From positions 16,260,914 through 16,324,913 of the forward strand of contig NC_049983.1 in assembly GCF_000003815.2 (NCBI RefSeq): a stretch of DNA of 64,000 bases, in the 5' to 3' direction. The stretch comes from Branchiostoma floridae (lineage: Eukaryota > Chordata > Leptocardii > Amphioxiformes > Branchiostomatidae). The translations under genes were made by a program, and so were the position numbers. A model generated the notes under the pieces. It made no database searches and was not told where the DNA came from. It was given only the letters and a program-made list of their open reading frames with translations. Shown here one piece after another: positions 21,601 to 61,100 of this stretch; positions within the stretch are counted from its first letter, which is position 1; the number at the start of each line of letters is the position of its first letter.

Positions 21601-24600
21601 ACCAGATATAATGTATTTGTATGACAGAGAGTCAGAGAGTATAGTTCAGAAGAGAAAGAGAGATCCGCAGCTAAGAACGAAGTTAGCGAGGCCAGCATTA
21701 CTAGTATATAGTAACGTCAAACCATCTTAACAGTCTCCCGTGCCCAGTGTACGGAAAACCTTGTCTCTGCGTCCTTCCTTTATTCTAGCTATGCTAGTCT
21801 TCAAAGCAGAATCTAAACAACTTGAAACCCATTGGTTTCATGGCTTGTTTGAAACATGTGACTTATTAACTTTTCAAAATCAGGCTTTACGTAACCTGTA
21901 TCTATATAGCCGGTATAACCTGGTATAACAGTCCTTCGGCGTAACACACCAGCTTCAATTCAAAACGACAACCACCTGAAAGCGCAACATTTCATATTTC
22001 ATAAAGAGATATCGACAAAAATCTGTGACACATTGGTCTTCTATATTTTTTTGACCTCGTGAAGCATATTATCCCACCTTATAAAAGCAAAGCTCAGAAG
22101 ATATTGGCAAAAGTTGTGCTATATTGGTCTTGTCTTCTTTAAAACATCTTATTTTTCTACCACTCAAAATCAGGCTCTCTATGACTCCGAACGATAACCA
22201 ATTGACAGCATTTCATTCTATATTGTAAAAAGCACAGGCTTATAAAAGACATAACGGCAAAAAGCTGGGACATATTGGTTGCCATTGCAAATTCATAAAG
22301 CATGCGAAACATCGTAATAATCTATGTGTACGGCTTATGATATGCAAGGAGCGCAGTCACTTCCGGCTATGTGAAAAGACCGTTCCCTTAAATCATTGAT
22401 CCTGAAAACAAAGAATGCATCAACAAAGGAAGAATAACAGCTAGAATAGTCTTCAATGACCACTGTATGGACGACACCCCTGTGGTTTAGCCAAAAATCA
22501 ATTCCCAAGGGAATGCATTCGTGGAATTTTCAAAATTCTTTCAAAGCCATCGTAATACTGTAGAAAATGCCTCCGCCCCTGAGGCGTCGCCAAAAACAAC
22601 AAAATCCTGTTGGCGCATCGCCCTTTCACGCCCACTTTGAAACGCCGCTCTGCGGAGGTCACATAACTGCAGCCAGCTCACGCTAGAAGGGCAGTTGCGT
22701 AATGGGGCGCATTTATATACACGAAATAGAAAACAATCCAAATCATACAGTCTCAGAGTCGACACCTTTCGTGACCACGCAGCACAGGTTATATCTGGCT
22801 GCCCCGTCAAATAAGGCTTTTTACCTCAGTCTCCTTCAAGAAGTTGATCCGTACTACCGCTTCATAGACCCCGGGGTTCGCGGATAAATACTGTTCTGCT
22901 ACCTTAATAGCATTTCACAGAGACAGACCGTCATTGTTCTCCGTTGTCTGTTGTCCCTCCCTCTCCCTTAAACATTACCCCTCTTCAGGATGGCTTCCTC
23001 GGGACCCCTCATGGGTAGTGGACTCGGCCGGTCCAGCATGGGTGGACTCCAACGGAGTGACGTACGATGCCGGGAAGGCCCTGGAAGGGAACCCTGACAC
23101 GTACTGGGACCCATGACCGGCCATGGCTACAACGACTGGTTCATCGTGCTTGATCTCAAAGAGTCCTACACTCTGAACCGCATCGGGATAACGAACGTCG
23201 GAGACCACACGCACGACACCAAGGTCTTCAAGCTGCAGAAGTCGGAAGCTGGGCGCCCGTACAACTGGGAGGACGTGGTGTCCGTTGACAACGTACAAAG
23301 TGGGGATCAACGTCAGGTGTTCGGAGGCTTCCAGGGGAAAGCCCGTTACTGGAAATTAGTGATCACGCAGACCTACACGGGCTGGCAGCCGTATGTGAGA
23401 GAATTGGAGCTTTACGCGTCAGGATTTGCTGCCGGTGAGGGAAATTATCCTCCGTTTGTTTGTTACCTCCAGGAAGGAAGATGACCCATGGCAACGGTAC
23501 TGTTTTTGGCTGTGCAATGGCAAACTTTTCCCCAACTTTTTGACCAATCAATGATGAAGTGATTGGTCATCAGCATTTCGTTCAACCTTCCCGACCACTT
23601 AGATTTCATAATGAAGGCAAAACTTTTTTTTATTTGCACGCTAGCATCAGTTTTCAGGTTCCCAGAGGATGTAATCCATATACATGTGTATTTACTGTAA
23701 TCAACATGGCCTTGTATAATGAAAAAATGGCCATTGTTGTCGAAAAATTAATGTATTAACAGTAACGTTGTAACGTTATTCATGTTATTTTCAGTTGAGG
23801 ACGTCCCATCCGGAGTGAACACCTACCACTGTTTCGTGTAGGGTACTCATATCGCTAGTTGTATAATAAAAGTTTATTTTTGTTTAGCAATAAACATATC
23901 AACATTGTAACCATGTAATTTTCAGTTGAGGACGTCCCATCCGGAGAGTTCGCATCAGTTTTGAGGTTCCCAGAGGATCATCCATATGATTACTGAAATC
24001 AACATGGCCTTGTATGATAAAAAATGACATTGTGAGCAATACTTCTATTAATAATGAAATTGTAACGTTATTCATGTAATTTTCAGTTGAGGACGTCCCA
24101 TCCGGAGAGAACACGTGCCACTCCATCAAGGTGAGCAGTGGAGAGTGGCTGGTTTACTCCAACAACAACTTCGAGGGGACTTCCATCCGCCTGCCGGCCG
24201 GCATCTACCCCGACCCCGGCCACATCCGCAATCTGCACTGCGGCTGTGACGCCACTTGGAACGGTGGGTTAAATCACTGATATGATATGATATGTTATGA
24301 TATTATATTATATGATATATGATATGATACAGTCAAACCTGTCTATAGCAGCAACCCAGAGAACTGCACTGTGGCTGTGACGCCACTTGGAACGGTGGGT
24401 TAAATCACTGATATGATATGATATGTTATGATATTATATTATACGATATATGATATGATACAGTCAAACCTGTCTATAGCAGCAACCCAGAGAACTGCAC
24501 TGTGGCTGTGACGCCACTTGGAACGGTGGGTTAAATCACTGATATGATATGATATGTTATGATATTATATTATATTATACGATATATGATATGATACAGT

Positions 24601-26281
24601 CAAACCTGTCTATAGCAGCAACCCAGAGAACTGCACTGTGGCTGTGACGCCACTTGGAACGGTGGGTTAAATCACTGATATGATATGATATGTTATGATA
24701 TTATATTATACGATATATGATATGATACAGTCAAACCTGTCTATAGCAGCAACCCAGAGAACTGCACTGTGGCTGTGACGCCACTTGGAACGGTGGGTTA
24801 AATCACTGATATGATATGATATGTTATGATATTATATTATACGATATATGATATGATACAGTCAAACCTGTCTATAGCAGCAACCCAGAGAACTGCACTG
24901 TGGCTGTGACGCCACTTGGAACGGTGGGTTAAATCACTGATATGATATGATATGTTATGATATTATATTATACGATATATGATATGATACAGTCAAACCT
25001 GTCTATAGCAGCAACCCAGAGAACTGCACTGTGGCTGTGACGCCACTTGGAACGGTGGGTTATATTACTGATATGATATGATATGATATGATATGACATG
25101 ACATGATATGAGACAGTCAAACCTGTCTATAGCACCAATCCAAGGGACTGCACTATGCCTGTGACACCACCTAGAATTATGGGTTATAGACCATGAATAT
25201 GACTTGAGTTTAAGTTCATTCAGATCAACAATTAGCGTTAACAATATACAAGTACACTTGGACTTCTCTTCATGTGGTATAACCGTACTTCTGCAGTGAT
25301 TTACGATATTGGACCAAAACCATTCATAGACTATATAATGAATTGAATTAAGTTCATTCAGACCAACAATTAGCTTTAACAATATACAATATACTAGCTT
25401 TTCATACACGTTAAAACTGCCACGGTTTTAAAGTGTATAAACATTACATTCGATCTAGATATTTGATGTTATTTGATGTCATTCTTACTAGTATTTGATT
25501 TCATTTACGCATATTAATTTTGGTACTGTCAATGTTTCATAGGAAATTTCTAATATAGCACGCATCTTAAACGCGGGATCAAAATATACGCACACGACTA
25601 CCCTGGAACTAAACACTGAGTACCACCCCTTTGAGTAAGTTGCTGATTTGTGATTATTATATTTCCAACTTTACAGACCAGGTTCGCTCCCTTCGCCCCA
25701 TCAACCAGGACGCCATCACCCTGTTTGACAAGAACGACTTCTGTGGATCCGAGAAGAGCCACCAGACCAGCAACCCCAACATCGAGATGGACAACTGCTG
25801 CTCCATCATAGTCCGTGATAGGACATGTTGAAATGTTGTTGCATGAAATGCAAGGACCACATGATCATCATGATCGTCTTTAGTATAATTGACCCTAACT
25901 CCTGCTATAGGCGTTACAAAATTCTCAAAAGATATCTTAGGCCAATAAATATGCGCAATGCATGCTGTTGAATTATTTTCGGTCCGTTTTATGTTGTTGT
26001 CTTTCACATCATACTTATCGTTCCCGAAAGCTGCCCGGCCGGGCCCCTTTGTGGAAATGTCACCTTAGCCTTACTGGGTATGACATCTGAGATTTCTTGT
26101 TCTTTCGTTCATTGCAGGTGGATGGTGGAAGGTGTTTCCTTATGGAGACTACAACGGAAATTATGACTGGTGCCGTGGAGAGTTCATTATTGGGCCGGGT
26201 AACTACCGCTTGAACATCTACTGTCCGGGCAACGACAGGATCACTGTCGGTTCTGTGCAGAAGGTGCCGTGCCCTTACTAG
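15689..26281 (+). CDS. Beta/gamma-crystallin-like protein B (4 coding exons, 181 aa)
   Basis: Exons: 15689-15755, 24087-24263, 25677-25814, 26118-26281; all introns phase 1, sum 546 nt, in frame. Exon 1 SITIYSEERLRGTKKTY, exon 2 WLVYSNNNFEGTSIRL and GIYPDPGH, exon 3 ITLFDKNDFCGSE and MDNCCSIIV, exon 4 GWWKVFPYGDYNGNY and IGPGNYRLN, ending VPCPY. One Greek key per exon, as in gene A, to which it aligns throughout. Exon 3 ends at GTC-C before GTGATA, so it has one glycine fewer than gene A at that junction. The ATG is 11 nt after a 3' splice site ending at 15677, so a 5'UTR exon lies upstream. The 8.3-kb first intron contains a discoidin exon of the same phase. Both sides of exon 2 are tandemly duplicated. 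Role as for gene A; inferred structural protein. Confidence 0.87.
16082..16260. other. Assembly gap with low-complexity edge
   Basis: 100 N at 16101-16200 followed by long G and T homopolymers. Sequence next to the gap is probably low quality. Confidence 0.95.
16582..16790 (-). pseudogene. LINE ORF2 C-terminal zinc-finger remnant
   Basis: On the minus strand the frame ends CRCALCGREC-NARIGLFSHSRHC then a stop at 16582. This CxxC...HxxxxC/H finger, preceded by RMAEEKRILRKELYNRP, is the typical extreme C-terminus of some non-LTR retrotransposon polyproteins. No RT core lies upstream within reach, so it is a 5'-truncated copy in intron 1 of crystallin B. Confidence 0.7.
16791..17840. other. Crystallin B intron 1, no feature recognised
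   Basis: AT-rich with a C-homopolymer at 17099-17114. Short open frames lack domains. Confidence 0.5.
17842..18184. mobile_element. CACATTTCC-TIR MITE, long copy with central hairpin
   Basis: Left end GTTACGGTCACATTTCCCAA, right end TTGGAAATGTAACCGTAAC. The middle has a near-perfect palindrome, AAGGAGGTTAAAGAA ... TTTCTTTAACCTCCTT, at 17978-18013. Same TIR family as 9168-9341. Confidence 0.8.
18544..19359 (+). other. Possible 5' part of a retroelement ORF, degenerate
   Basis: Adjacent frames at 18544-18768 and 18771-19007 are basic and Arg/Pro-rich (for example RPRKRRPVPGASQLGLRRF), GC-richer than their surroundings, and lead in the same strand to the SGNH-like frame. I cannot assign a domain; linking them to one element is inference from proximity and composition. 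Confidence 0.35.
19360..19818 (+). pseudogene. SGNH/GDSL-hydrolase-like domain of a retroelement, broken
   Basis: The frame reads HIVYVELGHNDI, matching SGNH block III (GxND) after a hydrophobic strand, then RDLVALARKISEIHSVRQAI and LVEPIWRL, the usual helix-strand order. The Gly-Asp-Ser block I expected just upstream is not in this frame, and the C-terminal DxxH block is not seen, so the domain is incomplete or frameshifted. SGNH domains occur in several invertebrate retroelements (CR1 ORF1, Ngaro/DIRS type). Which type this is cannot be told without a search. Confidence 0.6.
20303..20328. repeat. (GT)n microsatellite
   Basis: A short GT run just upstream of the first duplicated ORF copy. 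Confidence 0.9.
20340..20440 (+). repeat. Duplicated unknown segment, partial copy 1
   Basis: CTCGATCCATTTACAGGCCG and AGAGCAATGATGACGATGTTC align with CTCGATCCCAACAGACTAA and AGAGCGACAACGACGAGATG of the 20615-20947 copy. In this copy the frame is broken. Confidence 0.5.
20632..20947 (+). CDS. Unknown ORF, possibly an exon (105 codons)
   Basis: Open frame following a plausible 3' splice site (CGATCCCAACAG). The product starts LTIQDKSDNDEMFLTPTPVS and contains VTETSCIAGGAGIDVC, then a basic tail (HRRKTTRGPKKCQNSSRSG), and stops at 20947. I do not recognise it. Partial, more decayed relatives lie at 20340-20440 and 21065-21300, so it may be a pseudogene cluster or part of a repeat. It is on the same strand as crystallin B, inside its first intron. 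Confidence 0.35.
21065..21300 (+). repeat. Duplicated unknown segment, decayed copy 3
   Basis: Shares CACAGAAGGA/TACAGAAGGA, CCAGAACCGCACCGTC/CCAGAACAGCGCCATC and the ending CGATTGC/AGATTGC with 20750-20910. Stops interrupt every frame. The AT-rich flank after it (21340-21450) also duplicates 20945-21050. Confidence 0.5.
21476..21575. other. Assembly gap
   Basis: 100 N in intron 1 of crystallin B. The duplicated flanks around it suggest a collapsed or unresolved repeat. Confidence 0.95.
21576..22988. other. No gene recognised; shared 22-mer at 22575
   Basis: Intronic. At 22575-22596 a 22-bp word (core CCCCTGAGGCGTCGCCAAAA) recurs exactly at 27243-27264. A TTTATATA motif at 22711 follows it, but no transcript start can be argued. 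Confidence 0.45.
22989..23434 (+). pseudogene. F5/8 type C (discoidin) domain exon with one-base frameshift
   Basis: Starts after CATTACCCCTCTTCAG and ends before GTGAGG. Frame 1 reads GWLPRDPSWVVDSAGPAWVD and GKALEGNPDTYWDP, then hits a stop. The frame one base over continues MTGHGYNDWFIVLDLKESYT, NRIGITNV, KLQKSEAGRPYNWEDV, ARYWKLVITQTYTGW and VRELELYA. This is a complete discoidin fold except for one missing base in the CCC run at 23110-23112. With that base the exon would be 447 nt, phase 1 at both ends, a symmetric shuffling module. Its strand and phase match crystallin B, so it could be an (alternative) exon of that gene, between Greek keys 1 and 2, or a stranded module. Either sequencing error or real mutation could explain the break. 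Confidence 0.75.
23648..24110 (+). repeat. Tandem triplication of the crystallin B exon 2 acceptor
   Basis: TTTTCAG followed by TTGAGGACGTCCCATCCGGA occurs at 23794, 23925 and 24087; only the last is followed by the Greek-key exon. The upstream copies run into stops (the first after about 15 codons). Intron sequence also repeats: TTCCCAGAGGAT, ATCAACATGGCCTTGTAT and GTAACGTTATTCATGT recur before the copies. So intron 1's 3' end plus about 20-30 bp of exon were duplicated. Confidence 0.88.
24230..25195 (+). repeat. 131-bp minisatellite carrying the crystallin B exon 2 donor
   Basis: The unit begins with about 33 bp copied from the end of exon 2 (CTGTGACGCCACTTGGAACG), then the donor GTGGGTTAAATCACTG, an ATATGAT-rich stretch and ACAGTCAAACCTGTCTATAG. 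Donor copies lie at 24264, 24395, 24526, 24662, 24793, 24924 and 25055 (spacing 131, once 136), with an eighth degenerate copy near 25180. Units are nearly identical, so the expansion is recent or homogenised. Only the first donor is fused to the complete exon. Confidence 0.95.
26021..26070. repeat. Single end of CACATTTCC-TIR MITE
   Basis: CGGGCCCCTTTGTGGAAATG followed by TCACCTTA matches the right end of the family at 9168-9341. The left end is not visible. Confidence 0.5.
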
Positions 26282-28995: not shown

Positions 28996-28996
28996 T

Positions 28997-41303: not shown

Positions 41304-44300
41304 ATGGACCCACGAGGGTTGGTACACCTGAGACTGGTCGCCGTTGTCCTTATGGCCACTTGCGTGACGGGTCAAAGTAAGCTTTTCCTCTCAATCATGC
41401 CAAGTTATTGTATAGCAGTATTCAAACCCCAAATACAGATGGTCATTGTACAAGAAAACAATCATATATTGAGAAACTGAACAAGGAGGCACAGTTTTTA
41501 CTGCACATTCTTCTGCTGGGTGGAGGTTAGGAAACACTGCATGATGGGACGGCAGGTGAGTGGAGGTGATTTTAAGGCATGATGGGGGTTCTGCTGGATG
41601 AGAGTAATCAAACTTTGCAGCTATAAGAATCTTATATGTATCTTAATTCATACAGAAAAGTGCAACATTTTTTGTCATGTTTATCATCTCCATGAAAAAT
41701 GGAGATATAGTTTTGGGTGTGTCTGTGTGTCTGTCTGTGTGTTAGTTTGTGTTTCCGGATATTTGTCATGAACCTTTGGATGATAGCCTTGGTATTTAGT
41801 ATGTAGGTAGGAGTTGGAAAGAAAAAGGTCAAGCTCAATTTTGGGCCCCCTGGTATGTGACCTTGGTACTGCAGCAGAAATTCCGTTTTCTTGTATCTTT
41901 TGACCTGCTATGGTCTTGATTTTTTGGTGGCAGATAGGTGATGATGTGAGGAATATGTCGTGTATGTCTGGGTCCCCTAGCAGGTTGCTATGGAACTGCA
42001 GGGGCGTTTTTTCAAAATCTTCTTACGAGGATAACTGGACAAGGGAACAACAAATTTAGATTATATTTGGTATGTAGGTAGCTTAGACAGCGATGCACAT
42101 TATGCAAATTGGCACTTGATTGGCATATTCAATGAGGGAAATCTATATTTGTAGTTTTTGCCATTGTAGGACTCAAATACCAGTCATATATGTAGTTTGT
42201 GATTGGTTGGACATGGACAGATATCAATTATGCAAATACGTCCCTAATTTGCATAATCTATGTAAAGTGATATAATTATTCTAAATGGTAAATGATTGCA
42301 CAATCAACATTGTGACCAGTGTAACTTATCTAAATGTGTACATTAAAATGCATATATTATGTAAATGTGGAAATCATTTACATAATCAGACTATTTCATT
42401 GAGATATAGGGTCTCCGAACTCTTGTTTTCCTCCTGCTTAGCAATCCGTCTGGTCGGCGGCAACTCGGCAAATGAAGGCAGAGTGGAAGTCTTCCACAAC
42501 GGTCAATGGGGGACTGTCTGCGATGATATCTGGGATATCAATCACGCGCGCGTGGTGTGTCGGGCCCTCGGCTACGGGAACGCTCAGGCAGCAAGATCAT
42601 CAGCCTCATTCGGCCAAGGCTCCGGGCAGATCTGGCTAGACGACGTGCAGTGTTCCGGTACGGAGGCAAGGCTAGCGGATTGTACTCATCGGGGATGGGG
42701 ATCTCACAACTGTGGCCATCATGAGGATGCTGGTGTGGTCTGTCTTGCAGGTATGGAGGTTAAGAAATACTGCCTGATATTAAGGGAAAACACTGTATAA
42801 CAGGCAGGTTTGACGGAGGTAATTACACTGTATGATGGAATGATGGGTGGATGGAGGTAAAGAAACACTGCATGATGCGAATTGCGGTGCTGGAAGGTCA
42901 GAATCACTGCATGATGGGACAGNNNNNNNNNNNNNNNNNNNNNNNNNNNNNNNNNNNNNNNNNNNNNNNNNNNNNNNNNNNNNNNNNNNNNNNNNNNNNN
43001 NNNNNNNNNNNNNNNNNNNNNNCTTTTCTGGCAGCTCAGCCTGACGGCACTGATATGTGATTAAGCTTGCAAACATTCAGAAATGTGTAGATGAATAGCC
43101 ATACTAATCAAGACTTAGCCAGCAAAAAAAACAACATTATCATTGCTAAAGAATTTGCCTAAACTAGAGCAACATGTACGTTTACTACCTATACTATATT
43201 TATTGCGTCAGTCCCGAGTCAAAGTTCAGTCTTGAAAAATGGCACATTGAATGAATGCTAAGACGTCTATGTCATGATATGCATGAAAAACGTTATCGTA
43301 GGCGCATAATAGGGTGATGAATGGTGTTCATACATTTCTATGTGGTTTATTTATTTGAATTTTAGAACATGGAAAAAAATATATGTATGAAAAACTGTAC
43401 CAGCGTAAATATGTGTAAAATTTGGTGGAATGAACAATTATGATATCGTGGGTTAAAAGATACCATGCAGGCCACGCCAGTTGGATGGAATGGACAGGAC
43501 TAGGGTGTACCACCGTACCGTACTGCATATTGTAGTGGAATATCAAAACATAATATCTATACTTACTGAAGATATTTGAAAATACAATTGTGACAGAGAA
43601 ATTATAATGGAACCTATGGTCACCCTTTGCAAGAACCCTATCTTGTTACACATTCATTATTGTAGACATACTTAGTATCTGCTTTCACATCCAATTCACA
43701 ACACAAAGACTCAAACGTTTCACTGTTGACTAATTGGTTGTTTCTATCCGCGTTCACAGATATCGATGAATGCGCGGCTGGCACAGACAACTGCCACAGT
43801 CAGGCAACCTGTACCAACACAGACGGTGGTTTTACCTGTGCCTGTACCAATGGTTACAGTGGAAATGGGGTCACCTGTACTGGTAAGAACGTTTCGTTGT
43901 AACATTTACTTAGATAAATTCGCCTGTTTAAATAATTCCGCCAAGCTGAAAAATACATCCAAACGTAAACAGATCTCCATCCAATCGTCTCCCGGTATTA
44001 TGCTTTTCTGTATCATAAGTGCACGTCTGGGGTGCGGCACAAGAGATCACTCAAACACGCTGTTTTCAAAGTGGCAGATTTATGCAATCCAGCAGATGAA
44101 TGTTATTGGGGGATGAATCAACTTTACGTCAACTGTTCGAGTGCATTATTTTCAGAGAATCACATTGTGTATATCTCAACTCAAAGTCTCGCAAGTTAAG
44201 TTACATTGTGTCATCGGTAACTTGGATTGTCTATGACTACAGATATTGATGAATGTGCGGCTGGCACAGACAACTGCCACAGTCAGGCAACCTGTACCAA

Positions 44301-47300
44301 CACAGTCGGTGGTTTCACCTGTGACTGTACCAGCGGTTATATTGGAAATGGAGTCACCTGTACTGATAAGAACATTTTGCTGTTTTACTGGTAGAGTTCA
44401 TTGATTCATGTGAGGCACATACATCATAACATAAAGTAGTTTTGGTTACGTTGTAGCAGCAGTAACTTGGATTGTCTATGATGTATCCTTTTTTTGGACT
44501 CTCCTGTCGATTCGACAGATGAGCAGACAGACAGGCATTTGCAACCTGTTTGCCTGAATTGCACATGAGTTTTTTTTAATCCTTTTACTTTTAAGTAAAA
44601 TATTGAACTGTTAGATTCCAATTTTTCAAGATAGTTATACATCACAACAAAGCATCACTTATTAGTAAGATTAAGTTACAAAGTAACTTGGATGGTTTAT
44701 ATCCACAGATATCAACGAATGTGCAGGTGGCACAGACAACTGCCACGATAACGCAACCTGTTCTAACACAGACGGTGGTTTCATCTGTAACTGTAATAGG
44801 GGTTATAGTGGAAACGGCGTCACCTGTACTGGTAAAACAAAAATATTTATAGTACATTCGGTAAGTGCTACAGTGCTTGCAATATCTTTGAATTTCTATT
44901 CTAAAATTCAGGATTATTCATGAATGAAACTTTGTATCCACAGATAACGATGAATGTGCGCTTGGCACGGACAACTGCCACAATAACGCAACCTGTTCTA
45001 ACACGGATGGTGGTTTCACCTGTGTCTGCACCAGCGGTTATAGTGGGAATGGGGTCTCCTGTATCGGTAGGAACAAAGAATTTTATTGTCTATCAATAAC
45101 TGATGACAGTGAATTCAATGCCTACATGTTATTCCATTTACACAAAGTGTATTATGTTTATTCATCAATTGTAACTCTGGTGTGGTCTGTACCTACAGAT
45201 GACGATGAATGTGCAGATGGCACAGATAACTGCCACGATGATGCCACCTGTACCAACACAGACGGTGGCTTTACCTGTGCTTGTAATTACGGCTTCAGTG
45301 GAGAAGGGATCACTTGCACAGGTATAAAATATCCCCTTCATCCTTTTTATCCCCTATCTGAAAAAAGCACACATGCTTTCTTCTATTCTAGATCAAACAT
45401 CCAGCGAAACTTCTAGTACCTTGGTCCACATACAAAGATCCACACGACTGTAATTGATGAACTTAAATGAAATTTGAAATTTCCATTCTCAGCACTCCTT
45501 TCGCATAGAAGTAGAGAAAATGTGTTGCTACCATGCATAATTTTTTTATACGATTGAGTGGCTAAAAAGGCATCTTTTTTTTTGTAATCCCCCCCCCCCC
45601 CCCAGCTTTGTCTGACTTAGTCTTCACTGATATTGGGATGAGCTACATGACACTGTCCTGGACGGCGCCTGCTGACCTGAATATAACACGATATCGACTG
45701 CGTTACCAACGTGCTGGGGCTTCGTACCAGGACCTGTCTCCCCCACCGGGACCGGGCAACACCTCAGCAACCGTATCCGGACTGTGGGCAGACACAGAGT
45801 ACACCTTCACCCTGACTGCGTTTGGAGATGACGATGAGGAAATTGGCGAGATAAGTGGGACAGAGATGACAGGTTGGTCGGTGGTAGGACATGAATTCAG
45901 GGATGCTTAGATGGGTTAGATCTCTTAACATAATTGACGTAATTATAAGAGAGGCTTCAGTCCGAATCCCTAAAGTGAAATTCATATAAGATCAATGGTT
46001 TATTGAGCAATCATAAAGTCCAGCATTGGCACTTAATGCTGAACTGAAGGTAGGTCTTTGTAAGAAGTTGTGGTCAGTGTGATTTGTGTAGGTTTCACTG
46101 AGTGTTTCTGACATGGATGTGAGACCTCAGGGAAACATTACTACTAAGAGTAGATTTGTTCGCTGGACCTCCAGCAAAGAATACATTGTGCATATATGTA
46201 TATAATGACTATGATGAAAATTATATGTTCATGCAGATGTTTTTTTCAGCTGAGGTTATTGTGAACGTGGAGTGCCATCAGGACCACATGACCGTGACCT
46301 TCCCCAGAGCAGCGCTACCAGCGGTAGATGTGGACAACATGCACCTGCTGGACGACAGCTGTCGAGCGACGATTACAGACACGGAGGTGACTCTAAGGGC
46401 CGGGCTGCAAGACTGCGGGACGATTCGGAATGTAAGTACCTGGTAGCTTTTAAGTTTTGGAAATGTATAATTATTAAAAGACACATGCAAAATAAATATA
46501 GATGAGGCGAGTAGCATTGCTAAATGAAGAGCCAAGGTGGTGCATGCTACTGTAAATGGCTAGAATTTTTCACAAGGACAACTCACGACAGAGACTTTCT
46601 GATTGTTTAGTAACTGTTTTTTTTTGCATTTTCCCTGTTTTCATAGTCCTCAGTGGATGACAAGTTCATCTTCACTAACGAGGCCATCGGTCGTCAGGTG
46701 ACATCTGACAATGGTGCTGTGAGAGGAGCGCCCTTCAGCAGGAGGTTCCAGTGCGAGTTCCTCCGTCAGTTCGTGGTCTCACAAGGAAGGGATATCCTCT
46801 ACAACATTCCGTCTCCACGGTAAGTTCCTCCGTCAGTACGTTGTCCCGTCTCCTCGGTAAGTTCCTCCGTCAGTACGTTGTCCCGTCTCCTCGGTAAGTT
46901 CCTCCGTCAGTACGTGGTCTCACAGGGAAGGGAGATCCTCAGTACAACGTTCCGTCTCCTCGGTAAGTTCCTCCGTCAGTACGTGGTCTCACAGAGATGG
47001 GAGATCCTCTACAACATTCCGTCTCCTCGGTAAGTTCCTCCGTCAGTACGTGGTCTCACAGGGAAGGGAGATCCTCAGTACAACATTCCGTCTCCTCGGT
47101 AAGTTCCTCCGTCAGTACGTGGTCTCACGGGGATGGGAGATCCTCTACAACATTCCGTCTCCTCGGTAAGTTCCTCCGTCAGTACGTGGTCTCACAGGGA
47201 AGGGAGATCCTCAGTACAACATTCCGTCTCCTCGGTAAGTTCCTCCGTCAGTACGTGGTCTCACAGAGATGGGAGATCCTCTACAACATTCCGTCTCCTC

Positions 47301-49925
47301 GGTAAGTTCCTCCGTCAGTACGTGGTCTCACAGGGAAGGGAGATCCTCAGTACAACATTTCGTCTCCTCGGTAAGTTCCTCCGTCAGTACGTGGTCTCAC
47401 AGGGCAGGGAGATCCTCTACAACATTCCGTCTCCTCGGTAAGTTCCTCCGTCAGTACGTGGTCTCACAGGGCAGGGAGATCCTCTACAACATCCCGTCTC
47501 CTCGGTAAGTTCCTCCGTCAGTACGTGGTCTCACAGTGAAGGGAGATCCTCTACAACATTCCGTCTCCTCGGTAAGTTCCTCCGTCAGTACGTGGTCTCA
47601 CAGGGCAGGGAGATCCTCTACAGCATCACGTCTCCTCGGTAAGTTCCTCCGTCAGTTTGTGGTCTCACAGAGCAGGGAGATCCTCAGTACAACATTCCGT
47701 CTCCTCGGTAAGTTCCTCCGTCAGTACGTGGTCTCACAGGACAGGGAGATCCTCTACAACATTCCTTCTCCTCGGTAAGAGTTAGTAACTACAAAGCTAG
47801 CACAAACTGTGCCTGACTAGGATGTGTGGTATGATTTTTTCAGATCAATACTTTCCCATTCAGCTATCTATATAGTTGCCCACTTGGTTCTCTTTACAGC
47901 GTGCAAGTCGTGGATGCAGAAAACAGTTTCACCTTCGAGATGCACACGTTCACATCGGCTGACTTCACTGATACATACAATTCACCCGACTACCCTGTGC
48001 AGGTGTGCTGCTCTTTTATCTTTTGCATATATGCTATACTAGTATATATATCATGTGCGTCAAATTAAATGTTAAAAGATCGTATACCTAGGCCTGGACA
48101 CCCTGCCATGTCCAAACTGTCCTGNNNNNNNNNNNNNNNNNNNNNNNNNNNNNNNNNNNNNNNNNNNNNNNNNNNNNNNNNNNNNNNNNNNNNNNNNNNN
48201 NNNNNNNNNNNNNNNNNNNNNNNNAGTAGTTGAAAGGACCAACTGTTTACCCCATATGTTCTCAACTCAATTACTTGGGTAAAGAGTCAGTGTCATTGTA
48301 TACTTAGTAATAGGCCAGTTAAATTTATGATAATTTCTATCCTGTAGGTGTGACGTCGACACCACGCTTCAGCTAGACACAGAACGGTCTACTGACATGG
48401 CCTCATACTACTCCATCCAATCTTTCACCTTCCCCAACATTGTTGATCCCAGTCTGGTAAAATGGGCTAAGCCATTTATCCGGTGGTGGGCAGCTAAGTT
48501 AAAGTTAAAGTTGCCCGTGCATCTGGCAGATGCTTAGGGGTGGCGCCCATCTGCATTTCGAGTAGCCCTTGGGCCACACATGTGCAAGCCACTACAGCAG
48601 GGGGCTGGTCCGCTGGTTGTGATGTGTGTTTAACTCCCATACTCATTCTCATTAGTGCTGAGTGCTAAGCAGAGAAAGCAGCATGTACCATTTTTAAGTC
48701 TTTGGTATAACTCGGCCGGGGATCGAACCTAATCGGTAGTCAAGAATATTGACTACTACATGGTGCTTGGGTGCCTTCAATCCTCATGGTGGTGGGCTTG
48801 TTTCATACAGATATTATTCTTTCCTCCACGGCAGATCTACATCCATTGCACCATGGTGGTCTGCTTCAAAAACGACACAGACTCACGATGCAGTCAGGGA
48901 TGCATCCCCGCAACGCGGCGCAGGCGCGCTGTGTCCGACATGAGCGAGGCCCGAGTCCGACGCGCGAGCGAAAATGACCACATCACGACCCTCAGCCAGG
49001 GACCCTTCAAAGTTGAGAATGCACAAAAAGAAGGTAACTTTAATTTAGAATTTGTATATCAGGAAGGTGCCTAATATATAAAGTTTACTCAAATGGATGG
49101 GTGTTCTAACATTGGGCGGTGCGGCAGCAGCTGGTCATAGTTACACTGAACGACCTGTAGCGCCTAACCTAATAGCACATCTCACTGTAAGGGCTGTAAA
49201 GCTAAAGCTATCTAGTGAGAATGCACTCTACGATAGTAAGTACGAAAGTAAGAATATTTGAACACATCAATCCTTGGTTGATAACTTTGATACTTAAAGG
49301 CATGAGTACTACTATTTTTTTTTTGTTCTTGTCGGAGCTGGCACTCTGAGTAGCATGTGCAGAGACCGCGCACTAGTGAAAACAGTGAAGTAGACAGTAT
49401 GAACGGTATCTGTGTTTCCACAGCCTCTACCCTCCCCACTGCCGGCATCGCTGTGGGCACAGCTGCGGGGATAGCCGGAGTCCTCCTGCTAGTTGTGGCT
49501 GCCTTCCTGGTGAGAAAGAGACGCAGTCGTCATGCCAAGGAGCAGGCCGAGGATCGTGTCGGTCAGTGAGAGGTTAACACCCTGTGCAGAATCTGCTTTC
49601 AGATGATTTTTGTCCAAAGAATCCTTGTTCATTCAGCATGACAGTAGAAAAGCTAGCTATATGTGTAGCTTTTAATTCCAACAGTTGATGTTGATTATCC
49701 ACATGGCAATTAATTTAGAAGTGAGATCAGACCGCCAATCAAACACTATAATCTAACTACCCCGTACTAACAGTGGCAATATGATAATGAGCATTTGGTC
49801 CTTCCCCCTATTTTGCGTATTTGCCTAATGAATGTTATAATGTTTTTTTTTCAGGCTTTGACAACTATTCGTTTGAGCTTTGGGGGAAGGACAAGGCTGC
49901 CAACGTCACCCCTAAACCAGAGTAG
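41304..49925 (+). CDS. SRCR-cbEGF-FN3-ZP type I membrane protein
   Basis: Exons: 41304-41376 signal peptide ([12 protein letters not shown]), 42442-42750 SRCR, five 123-nt cbEGF exons (43760, 44243, 44709, 44944, 45199), 45606-45872 FN3, then the ZP module at 46250-46431, 46647-46819, 47900-48002, 48348-48456 and 48835-49033, 49424-49561 TM ([20 protein letters not shown]), 49855-49925 tail ending NVTPKPE. Introns in the modular part are all phase 1. The ZP module has the expected cysteines, ends SRCSQGC, then RRRR (48916-48927), a furin-type site, before the TM; family members are cleaved there and polymerise. Phase does not match between 48002 (phase 0) and 48348 (needs 2 nt), so a small exon is missing, probably in or near the gap at 48125. 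A 3' splice site 20 nt before the ATG implies a 5'UTR exon. Role: probably an extracellular matrix or surface polymer; I do not recognise a specific orthologue. Confidence 0.88.
41690..42090. repeat. Degenerate dispersed repeat, copy 3 of 3
   Basis: In intron 1 of the ZP gene. Shows internal duplication: GGCCCCCTGGTATGTGACCT with GGTACTGCAG, and again GGGTCCCCTAGCAGGTTGCT with GGAACTGCAG. Confidence 0.45.
42442..42750 (+). CDS. SRCR domain exon
   Basis: [73 protein letters not shown]: a complete SRCR domain with six cysteines (the group A number) in one phase 1-1 exon. The 100-N gap after it (42923-43022) could hide another module. Confidence 0.93.
42751..43759. repeat. Intron with GGAGGTAA..CACTGCATGATG repeats and gap
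   Basis: Degenerate units containing ACACTGCATGATGGGACAG recur at about 42865, 42905 and, in the previous intron, 41530. Gap at 42923-43022. No exon seen in the visible remainder. Confidence 0.6.
43760..43882 (+). CDS. cbEGF exon 1
   Basis: [33 protein letters not shown]: calcium-binding EGF with D-x-D-E-C and the Asp/Asn-hydroxylation pattern CxNxxxxFxCxC. 41 codons, phase 1-1, donor GTAAGA. Confidence 0.95.
44243..44365 (+). CDS. cbEGF exon 2, donor site destroyed
   Basis: [33 protein letters not shown]; acceptor ACTACAG is intact. Where exon 1 has TGTACTG-GTAAGAAC this copy has TGTACTG-ATAAGAAC, so the GT is lost. Read-through meets a stop 11 codons on. Because the exon is 123 nt, skipping it keeps the frame. 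Either it is a dead exon or the base is an allele or assembly error. Confidence 0.85.
44709..44831 (+). CDS. cbEGF exon 3
   Basis: [33 protein letters not shown]; phase 1-1, donor GTAAAA. Confidence 0.93.
44944..45066 (+). CDS. cbEGF exon 4
   Basis: [33 protein letters not shown]; phase 1-1, donor GTAGGA. Confidence 0.93.
45199..45321 (+). CDS. cbEGF exon 5
   Basis: [33 protein letters not shown]; phase 1-1, donor GTATAA. Confidence 0.93.
45606..45872 (+). CDS. Fibronectin type III exon
   Basis: [40 protein letters not shown]: the W, Y-x-L-R-Y, L..x-T-x-Y signature of FN3. Complete in one phase 1-1 exon of 89 codons. A C-homopolymer serves as its polypyrimidine tract. Confidence 0.93.
46250..46819 (+). 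CDS. ZP-N subdomain exons (46250-46431, 46647-46819)
   Basis: [49 protein letters not shown], then [12 protein letters not shown] and [12 protein letters not shown]: the four-cysteine ZP-N fold. The second exon ends in phase 2 before GTAAGT, the seed of the array that follows. Confidence 0.92.
46757..47780 (+). repeat. About 68-bp minisatellite built from the ZP exon 3' end and its donor
   Basis: The unit is the last about 62 bp of the ZP-N exon (TTCCTCCGTCAGT..., TCTACAACATTCCGTCTCC-CG) followed directly by GTAAG, which fuses with the next unit's TTCCTCC. Two short units of 37 bp (46820, 46857), then about 13 longer ones to a last donor at 47775 (GTAAGAGTTAGTAAC). Every unit ends in a consensus CG-GTAAGT donor. 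Units differ by only a few bases. The microhomology AGTTCC at exon and intron ends suggests slippage as the origin. Confidence 0.95.
47900..48002 (+). CDS. ZP linker/ZP-C exon
   Basis: [20 protein letters not shown] then [15 protein letters not shown]; accepts phase 2 and ends phase 0. In ZP proteins a short segment (LxVxV-like) should follow before the Cys-Asp-Val of the next exon; it is not visible. Confidence 0.88.
48125..48224. other. Assembly gap inside the ZP gene
   Basis: 100 N. The phase mismatch across this intron suggests that a coding exon is lost here. Confidence 0.95.
48348..49033 (+). CDS. ZP-C exons with furin-type site (48348-48456, 48835-49033)
   Basis: [20 protein letters not shown] and [12 protein letters not shown], then [20 protein letters not shown] and [13 protein letters not shown]. 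An in-frame earlier acceptor at 48810 (adding ILFFPPRQ) is possible. The tetrabasic RRRR after the last cysteine fits the consensus furin cleavage site of ZP precursors. Confidence 0.88.
48490..48745 (-). mobile_element. tRNA-derived SINE (second family), minus strand
   Basis: On the minus strand a box B (GGTTCGATCCCC at 48718-48729) leads into a body and ends in TTTAACTTTAACTTTAACTT. Lies in the intron between the two ZP-C exons. The 5' half with box A is truncated or diverged. Confidence 0.65.
49424..49925 (+). CDS. TM and cytoplasmic tail exons
   Basis: 49424-49561: [20 protein letters not shown] then [14 protein letters not shown], a single TM with a basic stop-transfer. 49855-49925: [20 protein letters not shown] then KPE and TAG at 49923. 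Short 35-40 residue tail. Confidence 0.92.
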
Positions 49926-53078: not shown

Positions 53079-54465
53079 ACTGCTCTGGAAGCTTTTTAAT
53101 AGATGCGCAGTTTTGGTACCACACATACGTGTTTGTAGTCTTTGTGTCTTTGATAGCTCGATAACTTACTGTAAGTACACAAGTCAAAAGCTGTCTTTTT
53201 CATTCAAATATGAAAATGTATCTTTTACTTAATGTATTCCACATGATGTGGAACAAAAAGTCTGAACACTTATGGTCTTAATAAGAATATCAATCTTTTA
53301 TTGGGGTGGGGTAAGACCCACTACTTACTACAGATTACATGTCCCATTTGTCATTCAAGTAGTCGAAGCTTCACACCTGCCAGAATTCAGATTGAAAATA
53401 TGCCCTTTGATGATATCATTTCTGGGGCAACTGACGGACTGTCAACTCCATATCAAATAAAAGCAATCAGAGATGGCAGACTTACCCATTCTTTTAACAA
53501 AAGCAAACATTTTCTATGCTAACCGTTGGGCAACTTGTCAGCTGCCTTAACCAGTGTGTAAAATCATCATGACATATTTTGCTCCATGGTTGTGTGGCAA
53601 CAAGAAAAATGCAGTCCCAAACATGACTGAGTTTGTATCTCCATTATGTTCAATTTCATGTTAGGGTGGGTCCAATAGCTTAATTTATGAGTTCGTCATC
53701 TATACATGTATTGCACTATTGTGCAAGTGCCGTTTTGACCTGTTGACTTGTTACAGCTCAATCAATTCAAAATATTCAATGCGTTTCAAAGTTCTTTTTA
53801 ATAAGTTAACATTAACAACTTGAAAGCGGTAATTAATGCATTACCAAACAACATCAAATATATAGCTTCTGTCCTATGATTATCAACAGACAAGGATAGA
53901 ACATACAGTACTGGCATGTAAAGCAGTGCATTTCTCATTATGAACTAACTCCCTACATGAAACAAAGAAAAGAAAAACTACACCTACTTCTAATGTTAGA
54001 TCTTGAATAATAATAATGTGTACAAAATTAAGAATAAAGCCAATTGCTACAAAGGTAATGTGAAAATAAAGTTTAGTAAACACTTAACCTAAATCTGTAA
54101 AATGCAATATAATGATCATTTATTAATGTGTAGATCTGAAATAGTTTGGGTTTATGATATACATGTAATACTAATAGAACAAAAGCCAAGTGTATCCACA
54201 CGTGGCTCATTGTGACCACATTTCTGCACCAAAACTTAAACCGATGTGCAGGTGACATAATAAACAATACTGGCATGTAGCTCGAGCTATCAGTCAATGG
54301 CAAACTGTGAAAACTTTGTACTGCAGATACAAAACAGTATGAAACATGTGACTTTCTTGTACAAAATACTCATCAACAATAGTAAACCGTAAACCTTTTC
54401 ATTTTGCTGGCAACCAAGTTTTGATATTTACAGGAGAGCAACAGTTACAACAGACCACTGGAATG
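53079..54465. other. No gene recognised; NSMCE3 3' flank
   Basis: AT-rich. TTTATT at 54119-54124 and 53294-53299 are candidate minus-strand AATAAA signals for NSMCE3. Confidence 0.4.
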
Positions 54466-54804
54466 CAGGGCTCTAGCCAGCGTCCGTTTTTCCGTCAATT
54501 GCTGTGTGCGACGGAAAAGAAATAGCATCGGATAGTGCACCTTTTGACGACAGAATCTGATGAAAGCTCTTTGGTGGAGCTACTAGGCGCTTGGGGACGC
54601 TGTTCACGCACATAAAAGCCACACACAGTTAGTTGTGTATTTGTTACGAATCTAGACAATGTCTATCGGTGCTCTTTCGCATACGATAATCTCATTAAAA
54701 CCCGTTTTTCAAGGTCTCAGTTCAGTCTCTCTAACTCGTGGAATAGTGTGCTCGGACAGTGGAAATTGGCTGACAGAAAAAATTTCGGGCTGGCTAGAGC
54801 TCTG
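54466..54804. mobile_element. hAT-like MITE with 8-bp target duplication
   Basis: Left CAGGGCTCTAGCCAGC, right GCTGGCTAGAGCTCTG; flanks are the identical 8-mer CTGGAATG (54458-54465 and 54805-54812). CAG ends plus an 8-bp duplication are the hAT hallmark. It shares an internal core (TCATTAAAACCCGTTTTTCA) with the 1.3-kb element at 59698-61022. Confidence 0.92.
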
Positions 54805-54812
54805 CTGGAATG

Positions 54813-54920
54813 TTAACTTTCTCACGTCTGAGGGCTAGTCTCTAGCCTCAGACTGGGACCTAATGTGATATTGCAGTGGTGCCTCACAGACTTATCCCTC
54901 CCCACCCTATCAAACAGGAT
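54813..54920 (-). repeat. Partial duplicate of the NSMCE3 terminal exon and 3'UTR
   Basis: CTCTAGCCTCAGACTGGGAC and CTAATGTGATATTGCAGTGG, GTGCCTCACAGACT repeat 55079-55140, which spans the NSMCE3 stop codon. The sequence at 54325-54460 also repeats 54905-55030 (GATGAAACATGTGACTTTCT). So the 3' end of the gene was tandemly duplicated before the hAT MITE split the copy. Confidence 0.75.
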
Positions 54921-55129
54921 GAAACATGTGACTTTCTTGTACAAAATACCCTTTCAAAACAGTAAACTGTATACTTTTCGATTTATCTGGTCACCTATTT
55001 TACACAACCGTTACAACATACCACTGAAGTTGTAACCACTGAAATGTTGACTTTCTCAGGTGCTACATGTACATATAGTCTCTAGCCCCAGACTGGGACC
55101 TAATGTGATGATGATACTGCAGTTGTGCC

Positions 55130-58100
55130 TCACGGACTGCCCCCCTCCCCACGCAGCACGTCCTGGTACTGGGAGGTCCAGATCTCCAGACTCTCGCTGC
55201 CATACATCTGTAAACACAAACAAACTCTGTAAACATAAACAAACTCTGTAAACACAAACAAACTCTGTAAACATAATACAAACACATGATACATGCATCA
55301 TAAATAAATGAAACTATCACGTGATCAGTATATTCTGGACACTGCAACTTATGTAAAAATTCCAATCAAGAAGTCATATAACCTGTAGTTCCAAGGAAAG
55401 CTGATAGTGGGTACAAAACAGCACATATTATTCCTGAACCCAAAACTACCAGGTACTAAAACATCGTGACATACAAAACCAGAAGTTCCGCTGCATAAAA
55501 GAAAAAGCTGTTAGGAGACCCAGTTCTACATTTTTGGACACCTGCTGCAGGCCATAGGCTTAAGTGGGTTGTTATTCACTGTGTCTAGGATATGGTATTG
55601 GAGGGAGTCCAGCCTTTTCCTTCCACTACCTTTTTCTTCTCTAACCAAAGAACTCTTAAACATATGATTATACCAGCCAACATGATCAGTCCCAGGTTTA
55701 AGTCTGGACCTCTCTTGACCTGGACTTAAACATGCTAGACTCATATGTTCCTTGATACTTCATCCAGTTGACCTTTAACAAGGCTGACCCCTCACCTTTG
55801 ACACAAACTGCAGCACCCTCCTCTTGCTGGTCTCCTTGTGGGCCCGAGGACCCCACCTGTACTCGAAGGATGGGGGGTCCGACTGGGGGACTCTCTTATA
55901 CTCCAGATACCTGTACAACATGATAGTCTCACACCTTAGACTTCATAACAAATGGTGTGAACAACAACACTTTGCTTCAACACAACAAATCTTAACTTAC
56001 TTATTCAGTGATTTAGCAACCTAATAAAACTTTTTAAAGAGCTATGCAAGAAGCATATAAAGAGGAAGGAAACTCACTGTTGTCTTGTGAACTCCTTCGT
56101 TAGTAGACTCTTTACATCTCCTAATACCTCATGTGGATGGCTGGGGGAAGAAATTTTTACAAGTATTGTAAATCATAATATATTCCAAGAGCTATTTGTA
56201 GTTTCTACAAAAATATACTCTGTCATACTAGTGTACTACAGTTTTGTATTATTTCAATTGTAAATGTGTCTTTTTCCATTCCTGCTATAAGATCAAGTCC
56301 CTGAAAACTTAGAATGTTTTACCATATGTGCTGTACACATCTTTATCACTAGACAGCAGTATAATGTAAACTCCAGAGTGGTGAGTTGCATTCACAACGG
56401 GAATGTCTTTCAATAATTGCTAACTGGGAATCATTCAGATGACCAACCATAGATTTTACATTTTCATTTTGACACTGACAATAGCCATAGCTGAAGCTAT
56501 GAATTTGGGGTTTTACCAAGGTCAGTATGAACAATGGCCATATTCACAATAAGGTATAGAGCTTACTTCTCCTCAATGCCGAGTCTCTTGAGTGTGTGCC
56601 ACAGCAGTGCTGTACAGAACAGGTGGAGAAAAAAACATCACACATGTACACAAATGGCTTCTTCGCTAACGAAACTGAAACATGACTTTTCACCCTGGAC
56701 TACATGTGCACTAGACTATACTCTAGGTTCAATACTCTGACATGCCCTGACATTGTGCTCTTAGGAAAGGCACTTGAAACCAATTTCCTCACTCGACTAA
56801 CGTTAGGAAGGTTCTTTGACAGGATGTTGAGAGGATGTCCCGTGTTTGAGCAGAGCCACAACTCTGGTAGGATAAAGACTAAACACACTTGAGTAGGGCT
56901 TTGCCCTGGTGCATTCTAGCAAAAAATTTCCCCTTCTTTGACCTGGAATCAACTTTAGCATTCCACAACTTTAGCATCCATTTTCCAATATTTATTTTGC
57001 AGTACCCAGTAAACGTCATACATTTTCTCATTTTGATTGACAGTACGGTCAAGAACTTTTCAGTGGAAAGGACGGGAATCAATACGCACATAGACGTCTT
57101 ACATATAATCAAATCAACATGACCTAACAGAAAACCAAGGCAACACGTACTATCCTGGATGACGTTCCCCTTCATAAAGATGAGGCTGAGAACAACCAGC
57201 AGCAGGCCAGACTTTGGGCCATCATCCAGCCTGGAGAAAAACAGGGTAACAAGAGACATGTAAAATATACATAGTCTCAAGTCTTCAAATACAATTTAAT
57301 CTTTACAACTGGGCAAAAAAACGGAGATTTACTTCCTCATGTTTTAAGTGACATCCATCACACTTCTTTGGCATTACTACTAGAATGAACTGGCAGAACA
57401 ATTCAAGACATGCACAGCTAACTAGTAAAACTGGTCGAACATGTCAAGTTTCTAGTGACGCTGAAGAAGAGTGATGGATGTCACTTGAAACGTGCGGAAG
57501 TAAATCTCCATTTTTTATCCAGTTGTGGAGATTGAATTGCATTTGAATATTGTTTACCTGCATGTCTAACCTCATAAAGGCATAATCTCAAGTCAATCTT
57601 CTATTTTTGAAAGGCAAATGATGGGAAACATTTTCTCAAGGAAAAATCTGACTTGGAATGTCGTCCCACAAGTAAGTGAGTACACATTTTGAGCACAGAA
57701 GAATAATTGGACCTAAAAAGCCACCAGGCTCAAGCTGTTATCAGTGGAATGGAATTAAAAACTTTACCAGGGGGGAGGTGATCACTCTAAAGTAAAGAAC
57801 TTTGGCATGATACCTTCATCTGTAAAGTTTGTCTACATCATACAACAACTATGCAACACTTGTTCTTTTAATGTGTTCAAATACAAGATTGGTTTATATG
57901 TAAAATAACCAATTGACCATATAATCACGATATCATCACAAATCTTATTTGAGAAGAGAGTTAACTGACATGTTGAGGTGGTCTTGCCCATCAGGAGTGT
58001 CGATCAGATTAACCAGGATGTAACGTTTGTCCTTTCCTTCTAGCTCTTCAACACTCACACCGAATACCTGTAACAACAAAGTACAACATAGAAACAACCA

Positions 58101-61100
58101 GGTTAACCAGGATCACACCGAATACCTGCAACAACACAGTACAACATAGAAACAACAGGTTAACCAGGATCACACCGAATACCTGCAACAACACAGTACA
58201 ACACAGAAACAACAGGTTAACCAGGATCACACCGAATACCTGCAACAACACAGTACAACATAGAAACAACAGGTTAACCAGGATCACACCGAATACCTGC
58301 AACAACACAGTACAACACAGAAACAACAGGTTAACCAGGATCACACCGAATACCTGCAACAACACAGTACAACATAGAAACAACAGGTTAACCAGGATCA
58401 CACCAAATACCTGCAACAACACAGTACAACAAAGAAACAACAGGTTAACCAGGATCACACCGAATACCTGCAACAATACAGTACAACATAGAAACAACAG
58501 TTAACCAGGATCACACCGAATACCTGCAACAACACAGTACAACACAGAAACAACAGGTTAACCAGGATCACACCGAATACCTGCAACAACACAGTACAAC
58601 ATAGAAACAACAGGTTAACCAGGATCACACCAAATACCTGCAACAACACAGTACAACAAAGAAACAACAGGTAACCAGGATCACACCGAATACCTGCAAC
58701 AATACAGTACAACATAGAAACAACAGTTAACCAGGATCACACCGAATACCTGCAACAACACAGTACAACATAGAAACAACAGGTTAACCAGGATCACACC
58801 AAATACCTGCAACAACACAGTACAACAAAGAAACAACAGGTAACCAGGATCACACCGAATACCTGCAACAATACAGTACAACATAGAAACAACAGTTAAC
58901 CAGGATCACACCGAATACCTGCAACAACACAGTACAACAAAGAAACAACAGTTAACCAGGATCACACCGAATACCTGCAACAACACAGTACAACATAGAA
59001 ACAACAGGTTAACCAGGATCACACCGAATACCTGCAACAACACAGTACAACATAGAAACAACCAGGTTAACCAGGATCACACCAAATACCTGCAACAACA
59101 CAGTACAACAAAGAAACAACAGGTAACCAGGATCACACCGAATACCTGCAACAACACAGTACAACATAGAAACAACAGGTTAACCAGGATCACACCGAAT
59201 ACCTGCAACAACACAGTACAACATAGAAACAACCAGGTTAACCAGGATCACACCGAATACCTGCAACAATACAGTACAACAGTTAACCAGGATCACACCG
59301 AATACCTGCAACAACACAGTACAACAAAGAAACAACCAGGTTAACCAGGATCACACCGAATACCTGCAACAACACAGTACAACATAGAAACAACAGTTAA
59401 CCAGGATCACACCAAATACCTGCAACAACACAGTACAACATAGAAACAACAGGTAACCAGGATCACACCGAATACCTGTAACAACACAGTACAACATAGA
59501 CACAACAGTTAACCAGGATCACACCAAATACCTGCAACAACACAGTACAACATAGAAACAACAGTTAACCAGGATCACACCAAATACCTGCAACAACACA
59601 GTACATACCCTTCATATAACACCTGCATACAGTTACACAGGTGACATAGAAACAATGTAACACCTGAAACAACAAAATGATTATACTCGATGTATATCAG
59701 TGTTTCCGCCAGAGGGGCGTCCACCCGTCCAATGACGTTCTCATTTCGTTTTGGACGGCTTGAACGCAACCAGAAGCCGTCCTCATAAAAAAAATTGCGN
59801 NNNNNNNNNNNNNNNNNNNNNNNNNNNNNNNNNNNNNNNNNNNNNNNNNNNNNNNNNNNNNNNNNNNNNNNNNNNNNNNNNNNNNNNNNNNNNNNNNNNT
59901 ATTGAAGCTAGAGGCTTAGGGGACGCCGTTGGGACGCTCACTGTTTGTTTTGCTATTGTTATGGTTGTTGACAATGTGTGTCGGCGGCCTTTAGCATACG
60001 ATAATCTCATTAAAACCCGTTTTTCAAGGTCTCAGTTACGCGAATTTGCCCTGTCACATTTCGAAAACTTGGCGGTAGGTCGATCTCGCTATAAGTATAA
60101 CACTACAAACTAAACTTTGTTATTGTAAGAAATAAGACAACACACTAACTTTGTCTAGATTAACAACTTTAGTCTCTGTTTTCATCGTCAATCATCGTAA
60201 ACAAAACAAAACACAATCAGAAACATGTGCCCACCGGCCCGGGTGCTCGGCACGGGAAATCCCCGACCTCGTTCAAGTTCGTTATCGGCAACACAGCGGA
60301 AAAATAAAGTGTTCACATAAGAGGTGCTGGACGTAAAAAACATCAAGTATAACTTTGGTTCCTTTTGATATGAGTTTTGAGCCCGCAAAATCTCCGAAAA
60401 CGGCAGAAATACACTTCAAAATATTCGGGATAAATACACTTCAAAATGGCGCTCGAGAGCTTGTTGTTTATCCTGGCCAATCACAGCGCTTGTTTCCCAT
60501 GACGTCGCTAGCTTTCCCAGATCTCGCGAGAAGTCACCACGGGAGATTGCGGGATTTCGGCCGCCATTACGCACATTGCCGCCGATAGAGGAGCGATAGA
60601 CGATGTTTTTCTTCATTTCTGAACGCAAATTTCTCGATCTATGGAAGGTTTTAGATGATTTATAAGTATACCACAACCTAAAATACAATATATACAAATG
60701 TTATTTCTTTTTTGAAAGTCCAAGAACCGTTTCTGGAACTTTTTAAAAGTAGTAGTACCCGTTCGGTGCGGCATACCGGCACGCAGCACAAATCAAAACA
60801 TCCTTGTTGTTACGGCACTGAACTTTATCGGACGTTAGTTGTTTTGTTTTTTCTTGCGACAGCGAACCGTTAACTTGAATTTTCGCGGTTTTGCAATTGA
60901 ATTTAATTTTCGCGGTTTTACAATTAGAATTAATTTTCGCGGTTTTTAATTAAATCTAATTTTCGCGGTTTTTTGCGCCCCAAGGTGGACGGCCTCCCAG
61001 CTGAGGTCTGGCGGAAACACTGATGTATATAATATATACTGTAATGTCCATATGCCCAGAACTGTGTCTATTCTAACTTTACGACATCCTTGCCCCAAAT

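Follow-up and report, generated by a model that had tools for sequence, protein, structure and literature searches.

Why should tandem repeats lie across the exon/intron junctions of several unrelated genes within one short stretch of DNA? This question is raised by the locus analyzed here, a window of 64,000 nucleotides from the amphioxus Branchiostoma floridae (C5:16260914-16324913 in the 513-Mb assembly in which the genome-wide searches were made). We modelled five genes in the window, namely two crystallins (A and B), an SRCR-EGF-FN3-ZP gene, NSMCE3 and a methyltransferase-like gene, with exon models taken from protein relatives, and located 62 exon/intron junctions across them. The models are supported in Pfam by crystallin, F5/8C, SRCR, EGF, fn3, ZP and MAGE domains, while the methyltransferase score of the last gene is under the cut-off. 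Moreover, the NSMCE3 model aligns to the solved NSMCE3 chain 9lwi_E (5e-57) and reaches 94% against NSMCE3 of B. belcheri. We consider, with a probability of about 0.86, that the arrays at the junctions of these genes are mirages, that is, minisatellites founded by a tandem duplication straddling a junction, then expanded and tolerated as intron.

Arrays were detected with Tandem Repeats Finder (TRF), and the splice-site copies were then counted within each array. TRF together with the exon models confirmed that three arrays named in an initial annotation of the window, in crystallin B, the ZP gene and NSMCE3, carry the true splice site in their unit. For the crystallin donor array TRF gives 24233-25170 (131 bp × 7.2; true donor between 24263 and 24264), with eight donor copies, of which seven are intact and one is decayed. 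For the ZP array it gives 67 bp × 15, with the true donor between 46819 and 46820 and a splice signal in 16 of 16 copies; 64 bp of the unit are exonic, and the units of 67/69 bp consist of 64–66 bp of exon-like sequence plus GTA. The NSMCE3 exon 5 array (57 bp × 27.5; first exon base 58067) has the signal in 28 of 28 copies, and its unit contains 13 bp of exon and a displaced exon fragment of 14 bp (13 of 14 positions match; 0 of 1000 shuffles). A coding role for this unit was considered and rejected: 57-bp units read open, but the unit adjacent to the exon is 58 bp long and the frame is broken. The initial annotation omitted or did not list two further arrays, at the acceptors of the NSMCE3 last exon and of crystallin exon 2 (Table 1). 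In the latter the exon side of the copies starts at 23795, 23926 and 24087, the last being the true one, and this threefold acceptor probably explains the start at 23648 given by that annotation. In these five clear arrays the splice dinucleotide is kept in all copies except the last crystallin donor copy.

Table 1. Junction arrays of the window and the exons concerned (position 1 is the first base of the window)
Feature	Position	Strand	Remarks
Crystallin A exon 2, paralogous junction	7278..7457	+	TRF finds no array
Crystallin exon 2 acceptor, degenerate repeat	23644..24114	+	three copies, 3/3 with splice signal
Crystallin B exon 2 (beta/gamma-crystallin)	24087..24263	+	Pfam Crystall 4e-15; P0057 identical here
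Crystallin exon 2 donor array	24233..25194, right edge estimated	+	131-bp unit = 31 bp exon + 100 bp intron
SRCR exon donor, weak candidate	42745..42915, cut between 42750 and 42751	+	repeats truncated by assembly gap
ZP-domain exon of SRCR-EGF-FN3-ZP gene	46647..46819	+	gene model, Pfam, relatives
ZP exon donor array	46756..47779	+	16 donors; 67/69-bp units and two 37-bp short units
NSMCE3 last-exon acceptor array	55207..55283	-	19 bp × 4, last copy true, signal in 4/4
NSMCE3 exon 5	57970..58067	-	gene model, protein relatives
NSMCE3 exon 5 acceptor array	58055..59605	-	28 acceptors, 27 units of 45–58 bp (mostly 56–57)

Such arrays could arise in three steps. A short tandem duplication across a junction would be produced by slippage or microhomology joining, the copies would be multiplied by slippage or unequal exchange, and the spliceosome would keep to the outermost, exon-proximal copy, so that the extra copies remain intron and the mature mRNA is unchanged. 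Normal splicing was judged from the predicted proteins of relatives (NSMCE3, crystallin and ZP), and by this measure the splice site in use is putatively the first copy of a donor array and the last copy of an acceptor array. In the five clear window arrays, and at 12 of 12 ZP loci described below, the extra copies lie on the side of the intron. We tested 12 alternative splice sites, and 11 of them yield a stop or a frame shift: four ZP donors lead to an immediate stop and two crystallin donors to a stop after five codons, while three NSMCE3 exon 5 acceptors (with a stop shown for two) and two acceptors of the NSMCE3 last exon shift the frame. The proposal of the initial annotation that splicing hides the expansion fits these results, apart from one NSMCE3 acceptor that is in frame. 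The true site is top-scoring or tied among the copies of the ZP array, the crystallin donor array and both NSMCE3 arrays, by a scoring matrix derived from the same window genes. The predicted proteins of B. belcheri (NSMCE3) and B. lanceolatum (crystallin, P0058) are without array repeats.

Several points weigh against this reading. The in-frame acceptor, 57 bp upstream of the NSMCE3 last exon, would insert residues, and for this reason splicing does not shield that array in all cases. At crystallin exon 2 the acceptor in use scores 6.34 against 8.74 for an upstream copy, outside the pattern of the other four arrays. The splice cores of the copies show no higher conservation than other blocks, and selection on them was rejected, as 26–41% of equally long blocks are equally invariant. 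Which exons are used was judged from gene models and predicted proteins, not transcripts. One of these proteins, P0057 of B. floridae (LOC118416460), has 100% identity over 80% of the crystallin B model; it very likely derives from the same assembly as the window and is therefore not independent evidence for the model. Finally, array lengths may be wrong, because the assembly, which we infer to be the chromosome-scale one built with Sanger reads, HaploMerger2 and Hi-C (PMC7269912), is Sanger-based with merged haplotypes.

The window arrays belong to a known class, and the phenomenon is already in print; the comparisons below refer to the accessible portions of the papers cited. The statement in the initial annotation that such repeats had been reported for amphioxus Adh proved right, since two papers (PMC3087553, PMC3902484) cite Adh for boundary repeats, the class being named mirages. 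Three features of this class are found here as well: the unit spans an exon/intron boundary, the gene is from a cephalochordate and splice signals are present in many units. In the globin genes BflGb6 and BflGb9, mirages are tandem duplications of 5' or 3' exon/intron boundaries (Ebner et al. 2010, PMC3087553), with AG/GT in many of the units, two haplotypes having 6 and 3 units, and boundary copies that escape homogenisation (PMC3087553). They are like the window arrays in their minisatellite-like duplication of a boundary with retained splice signals, but their units are 150–160 bp long and few, compared with 19–131 bp and up to 28 copies here; a family-wide shared array, as found here for ZP, is not described for them in the accessible text (PMC3087553). 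In the same paper reverse transcription-polymerase chain reaction and Adh3 data "suggest" that mirages leave splicing undisturbed. The Adh3 mirages (Canestro et al. 2002, as cited in PMC3087553) have units of 10–72 bp over boundaries and show somatic instability; they too are short units over exon/intron boundaries, in a different gene. Lancelet PGBD5 and TnC have tandem repeats overlapping splice sites as in the window (60 and 108 bp in PGBD5), but those of PGBD5 are called imperfect and, according to the assembly used, have 2 or 7 copies in one case and 3 or 6 in the other (PMC3902484). In the Rogers model, introns are gained via tandem AGGT duplication (PMC4974935), which likewise carries splice signals, whereas the window arrays show no new intron; for ZP and crystallin the donor is at the same place in array-free paralogs, which argues against intron gain of this kind. 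Junction arrays were not found in the accessible text of PMC2632668, PMC2206037, PMC5802833 and PMC5896119, and a search of mostly open-access literature found neither a genome-wide mirage count nor a family-wide inherited case.

The ZP array is shared by a gene family. A 180-bp exon query of the genome led to 18 fetched loci, 11 close and 7 distant paralogs, the latter from 11 more distant exon matches (four were not fetched), with no repeated matches listed near any of the 11. In the close paralogs (82–92% identity) the array has the same donor and register in 12 of 12 loci, the window included, with 3–16 donors per locus, while among the fetched distant paralogs it is present in 0 of 7, with one donor each. 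Because of this distribution the array was probably gained once and then retained, which is the simplest reading, though with modest branch support. On the ZP exon tree the array requires one change (62% of bootstrap trees; 0 of 500 shuffles as low), with a branch support of 63/88. The same 34-nt short unit, substitutions aside, occurs in 9 of the 12 array loci, and unit similarity is 0.928 within loci vs 0.897 between loci. Array length was compared between paralogs and differs: L030 has 10 donors and L031 has 6, and downstream of the array the two share 298 of 300 bases. Upstream of it 38 of 432 aligned bases differ, which hints at gene conversion or misalignment.

At the protein level, 44 of 47 ZP matches align across the junction, and in 42 of those there is no long insert. 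P0113 contains an unrelated insert of 22 residues and P0114 one of 25, and P0111 has repeated units. In the latter, a B. floridae gene model (L038), about two array units are taken as coding sequence; since a donor is spliced there to an AG within the array and the model stops at an array donor, the read-through probably reflects an annotation error induced by the array. Junction arrays seem in this way to mislead gene prediction.

A genome-wide search with two donor-word patterns added 14 candidate junction arrays, all in genes unrelated to one another. The pattern CAGGTAAGT-N(40-70)-CAGGTAAGT has 376 matches vs 11 for the reversed pattern. The 100 of these that were listed reach C5:4.44 Mb; 68 of them are in two dispersed families and were dropped, and the remaining 32 make up 6 loci, all fetched. 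Among the matches listed, 5 of the 6 loci are junction arrays, and L053 consists of two unrelated donors. Three of the five have exons passing Pfam cut-offs (VWC, folate carrier, and trypsin with two copies at the acceptor), one is unnamed and the exon of one is presumably dynein-like. Pairs of TGAATGGAC gave counts of 4 and 7. For AAGGTGAGT there are 52 pair matches vs 22 for the reversed word (single words, 4578 vs 4187), in 18 loci, of which the 12 multi-copy ones were fetched and 6 single pairs left out. Nine of the 12 are on the donor of a coding exon, the exons being called by eye. Two exons pass Pfam cut-offs (BACK, Ig), two match solved structures (TDG, 1e-12; myotubularin-related MTMR2, 4e-13), three are under the Pfam cut-off (CCDC138-, sulfotransferase- and C1-like), L056 is without a match and L057 has a weak DUF match. 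Outside the donor count are L062, L054 and L055; L062:88-1334 holds a 69-bp × 18 array that may be a coding repeat, its first units reading open in a single frame. A codon-usage threshold of 10 was passed by 5 of the 9 donor arrays vs 2 of 20 random AAGGTGAGT sites. Mirages have so far been described gene by gene in the accessible literature. The 14 candidates and the array common to 12 ZP paralogs suggest a frequent class in the B. floridae genome, datable and countable. With such a class it can be tested whether tandem duplications are drawn to splice sites and whether introns or exons are gained from the arrays.

Whether junctions carry more arrays than expected was analyzed in the window and in a random block. 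With each array collapsed to one unit, and units of 1–8 bp and nested duplicate TRF rows excluded, 4 of 17 TRF arrays in the window span a junction; 0.71 are expected over the whole window (P=0.0036) and 1.48 with placement within genes only (P=0.047), P values that are flattering because the window was chosen by a reader for its junction arrays. A cruder test showed no excess, with a local copy at 13 of the 62 junctions (8 of them EGF-exon duplicates; circular shifts, P=0.095). As for the earlier statement that three independent cases are beyond chance, three genes are indeed involved, but the ZP array is common to a gene family. In a 200-kb block chosen regardless of content, which includes 7.3 kb of N, four of the 37 arrays are no more than 60 bp from a predicted coding segment, and one is a recognised junction case, with 0.5–1.0 expected for 60–120 assumed junctions; the coding-segment finder recovers 18 of 27 known window exons, so that cases in the block may be missed. 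The one case is 71 bp × 3 at an exon acceptor, and its repeat covers the pyrimidine tract and hardly any exon. This exon has no Pfam or PDB match, and from their motifs we take the neighbouring segments to resemble kinesin. The array at 54551-55513 of the block may contain an exon.

How the duplications came to lie at junctions can be explained in two ways. They may occur anywhere, the purely exonic ones being purged and the junction-containing ones surviving because they are spliced out. We give this explanation about even odds; the weak or null excess tests agree with it, as do extra copies on the intron side wherever an exon was identified, but the nine donor arrays among 12 and the skewed intronic share of the unit do not. 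This share is low in 15 donor arrays (mean 0.28; Kolmogorov-Smirnov test vs uniform, P=0.004), the intronic part being 3 nt in ZP, L059 and L061, 4 in L048 and 1 in L058, with the joint inside the donor hexamer in several. The values were hand-entered: of tied modes, L058 was taken as 1 and not 7 and L052 as 12 and not 15, and for L049 the value second in frequency, 5 of 61, was used, as the commonest (19 of 64) reflects a 3-bp insertion. The low share is a lead, not proof, pointing to microhomology at the donor. It would suit the more tentative explanation that junctions, above all donors, are true hot spots, where the donor motif seeds duplication via microhomology with an exon look-alike. 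The donor fraction among AAGGTGAGT words is perhaps 10–25% in general, a rough value from the 20 random sites (two clear donors by eye, L074 and L081, and a few possible), and for base rates of 0.10–0.25 the binomial P of 9/12 is 1.7e-7 to 3.9e-4, or 2.1e-5 to 0.019 when taken as 9/18 loci. On the other side, 13 of the 15 arrays were found via an intact donor word, and the array loci number 12 for AAGGTGAGT vs 6 for the reversed word (P=0.16), whose 22 matches fall in 9 loci, at least two of the six arrays themselves containing GTGAGT. AAGGTGAGT is also not above its first-order expectation (5314 vs 4578 seen; reversed word, 6162 vs 4187), and as both words are rarer than expected, word counts give no base rate. 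Together with the circular-shift test, the single case in the random block and exons called by eye, these results leave the hot spot claimed in the initial annotation suggested, not proven. It is somewhat less probable still, and in our opinion doubtful, that the 5' splice site of B. floridae is a genome-wide breakpoint hot spot whose donor-seeded arrays persist through gene duplication, shielded by splicing. Seeding by replication or R-loops, also put forward there, found no support: sense-strand GC skews in four arrays are +0.11, -0.13, +0.37 and +0.64, neither strand of the three large arrays has a G-quadruplex motif, and units fold ordinarily, with z-scores of -0.71 (one crystallin unit), 0.60 (a two-unit ZP stretch) and 0.77 (one NSMCE3 unit); the 19-bp NSMCE3 unit has -3.1 at only -0.5 kcal/mol.

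That the arrays are functional, for example as a reserve of alternative exons or in splicing regulation, appears improbable. Their retention in all 12 close ZP loci, the two units read through in P0111 and the in-frame NSMCE3 acceptor could be taken in favor of it, but P0111 looks like an artefact, translation past the true ZP and crystallin donors stops at once or within a few codons, and splice cores are not specially conserved. An assembly artefact is more improbable by far: the assembly is of the kind described and gaps are nearby, but copies differ among themselves and the ZP array occurs in 12 loci on four contigs. For arrays regarded as mirages special function is unneeded, and the array class recurs across the B. 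floridae genome.

Other features of the window and the genome were also observed. At the weak SRCR candidate a 26-bp match (88%) begins 2 bases into the intron and a 34-bp match (71%) crosses the junction. In the ZP gene, the second EGF exon is followed at 44366 by ATAAGA, not GTAAGA, and its donor looks broken. An F5/8C-type exon (23113-23434) sits between crystallin exon 1 (15689) and exon 2; P0057 begins within it, while B. lanceolatum P0058 matches crystallin exon 1 instead. The donor of crystallin B exon 3 (GTGATA, 25815-25820) is weak, and P0057 continues into the intron there. A 22-bp array with a GTCTTGAGAC core (5663-6498) ends about 48 bp before the likely acceptor of the first coding exon of crystallin A. 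Finally, a dispersed 51-bp repeat containing CAGGTAAGT forms inverted pairs about 1–1.5 kb apart in several places, such as C3:7451737-7453274, and these pairs resemble a mobile element with subterminal repeats.

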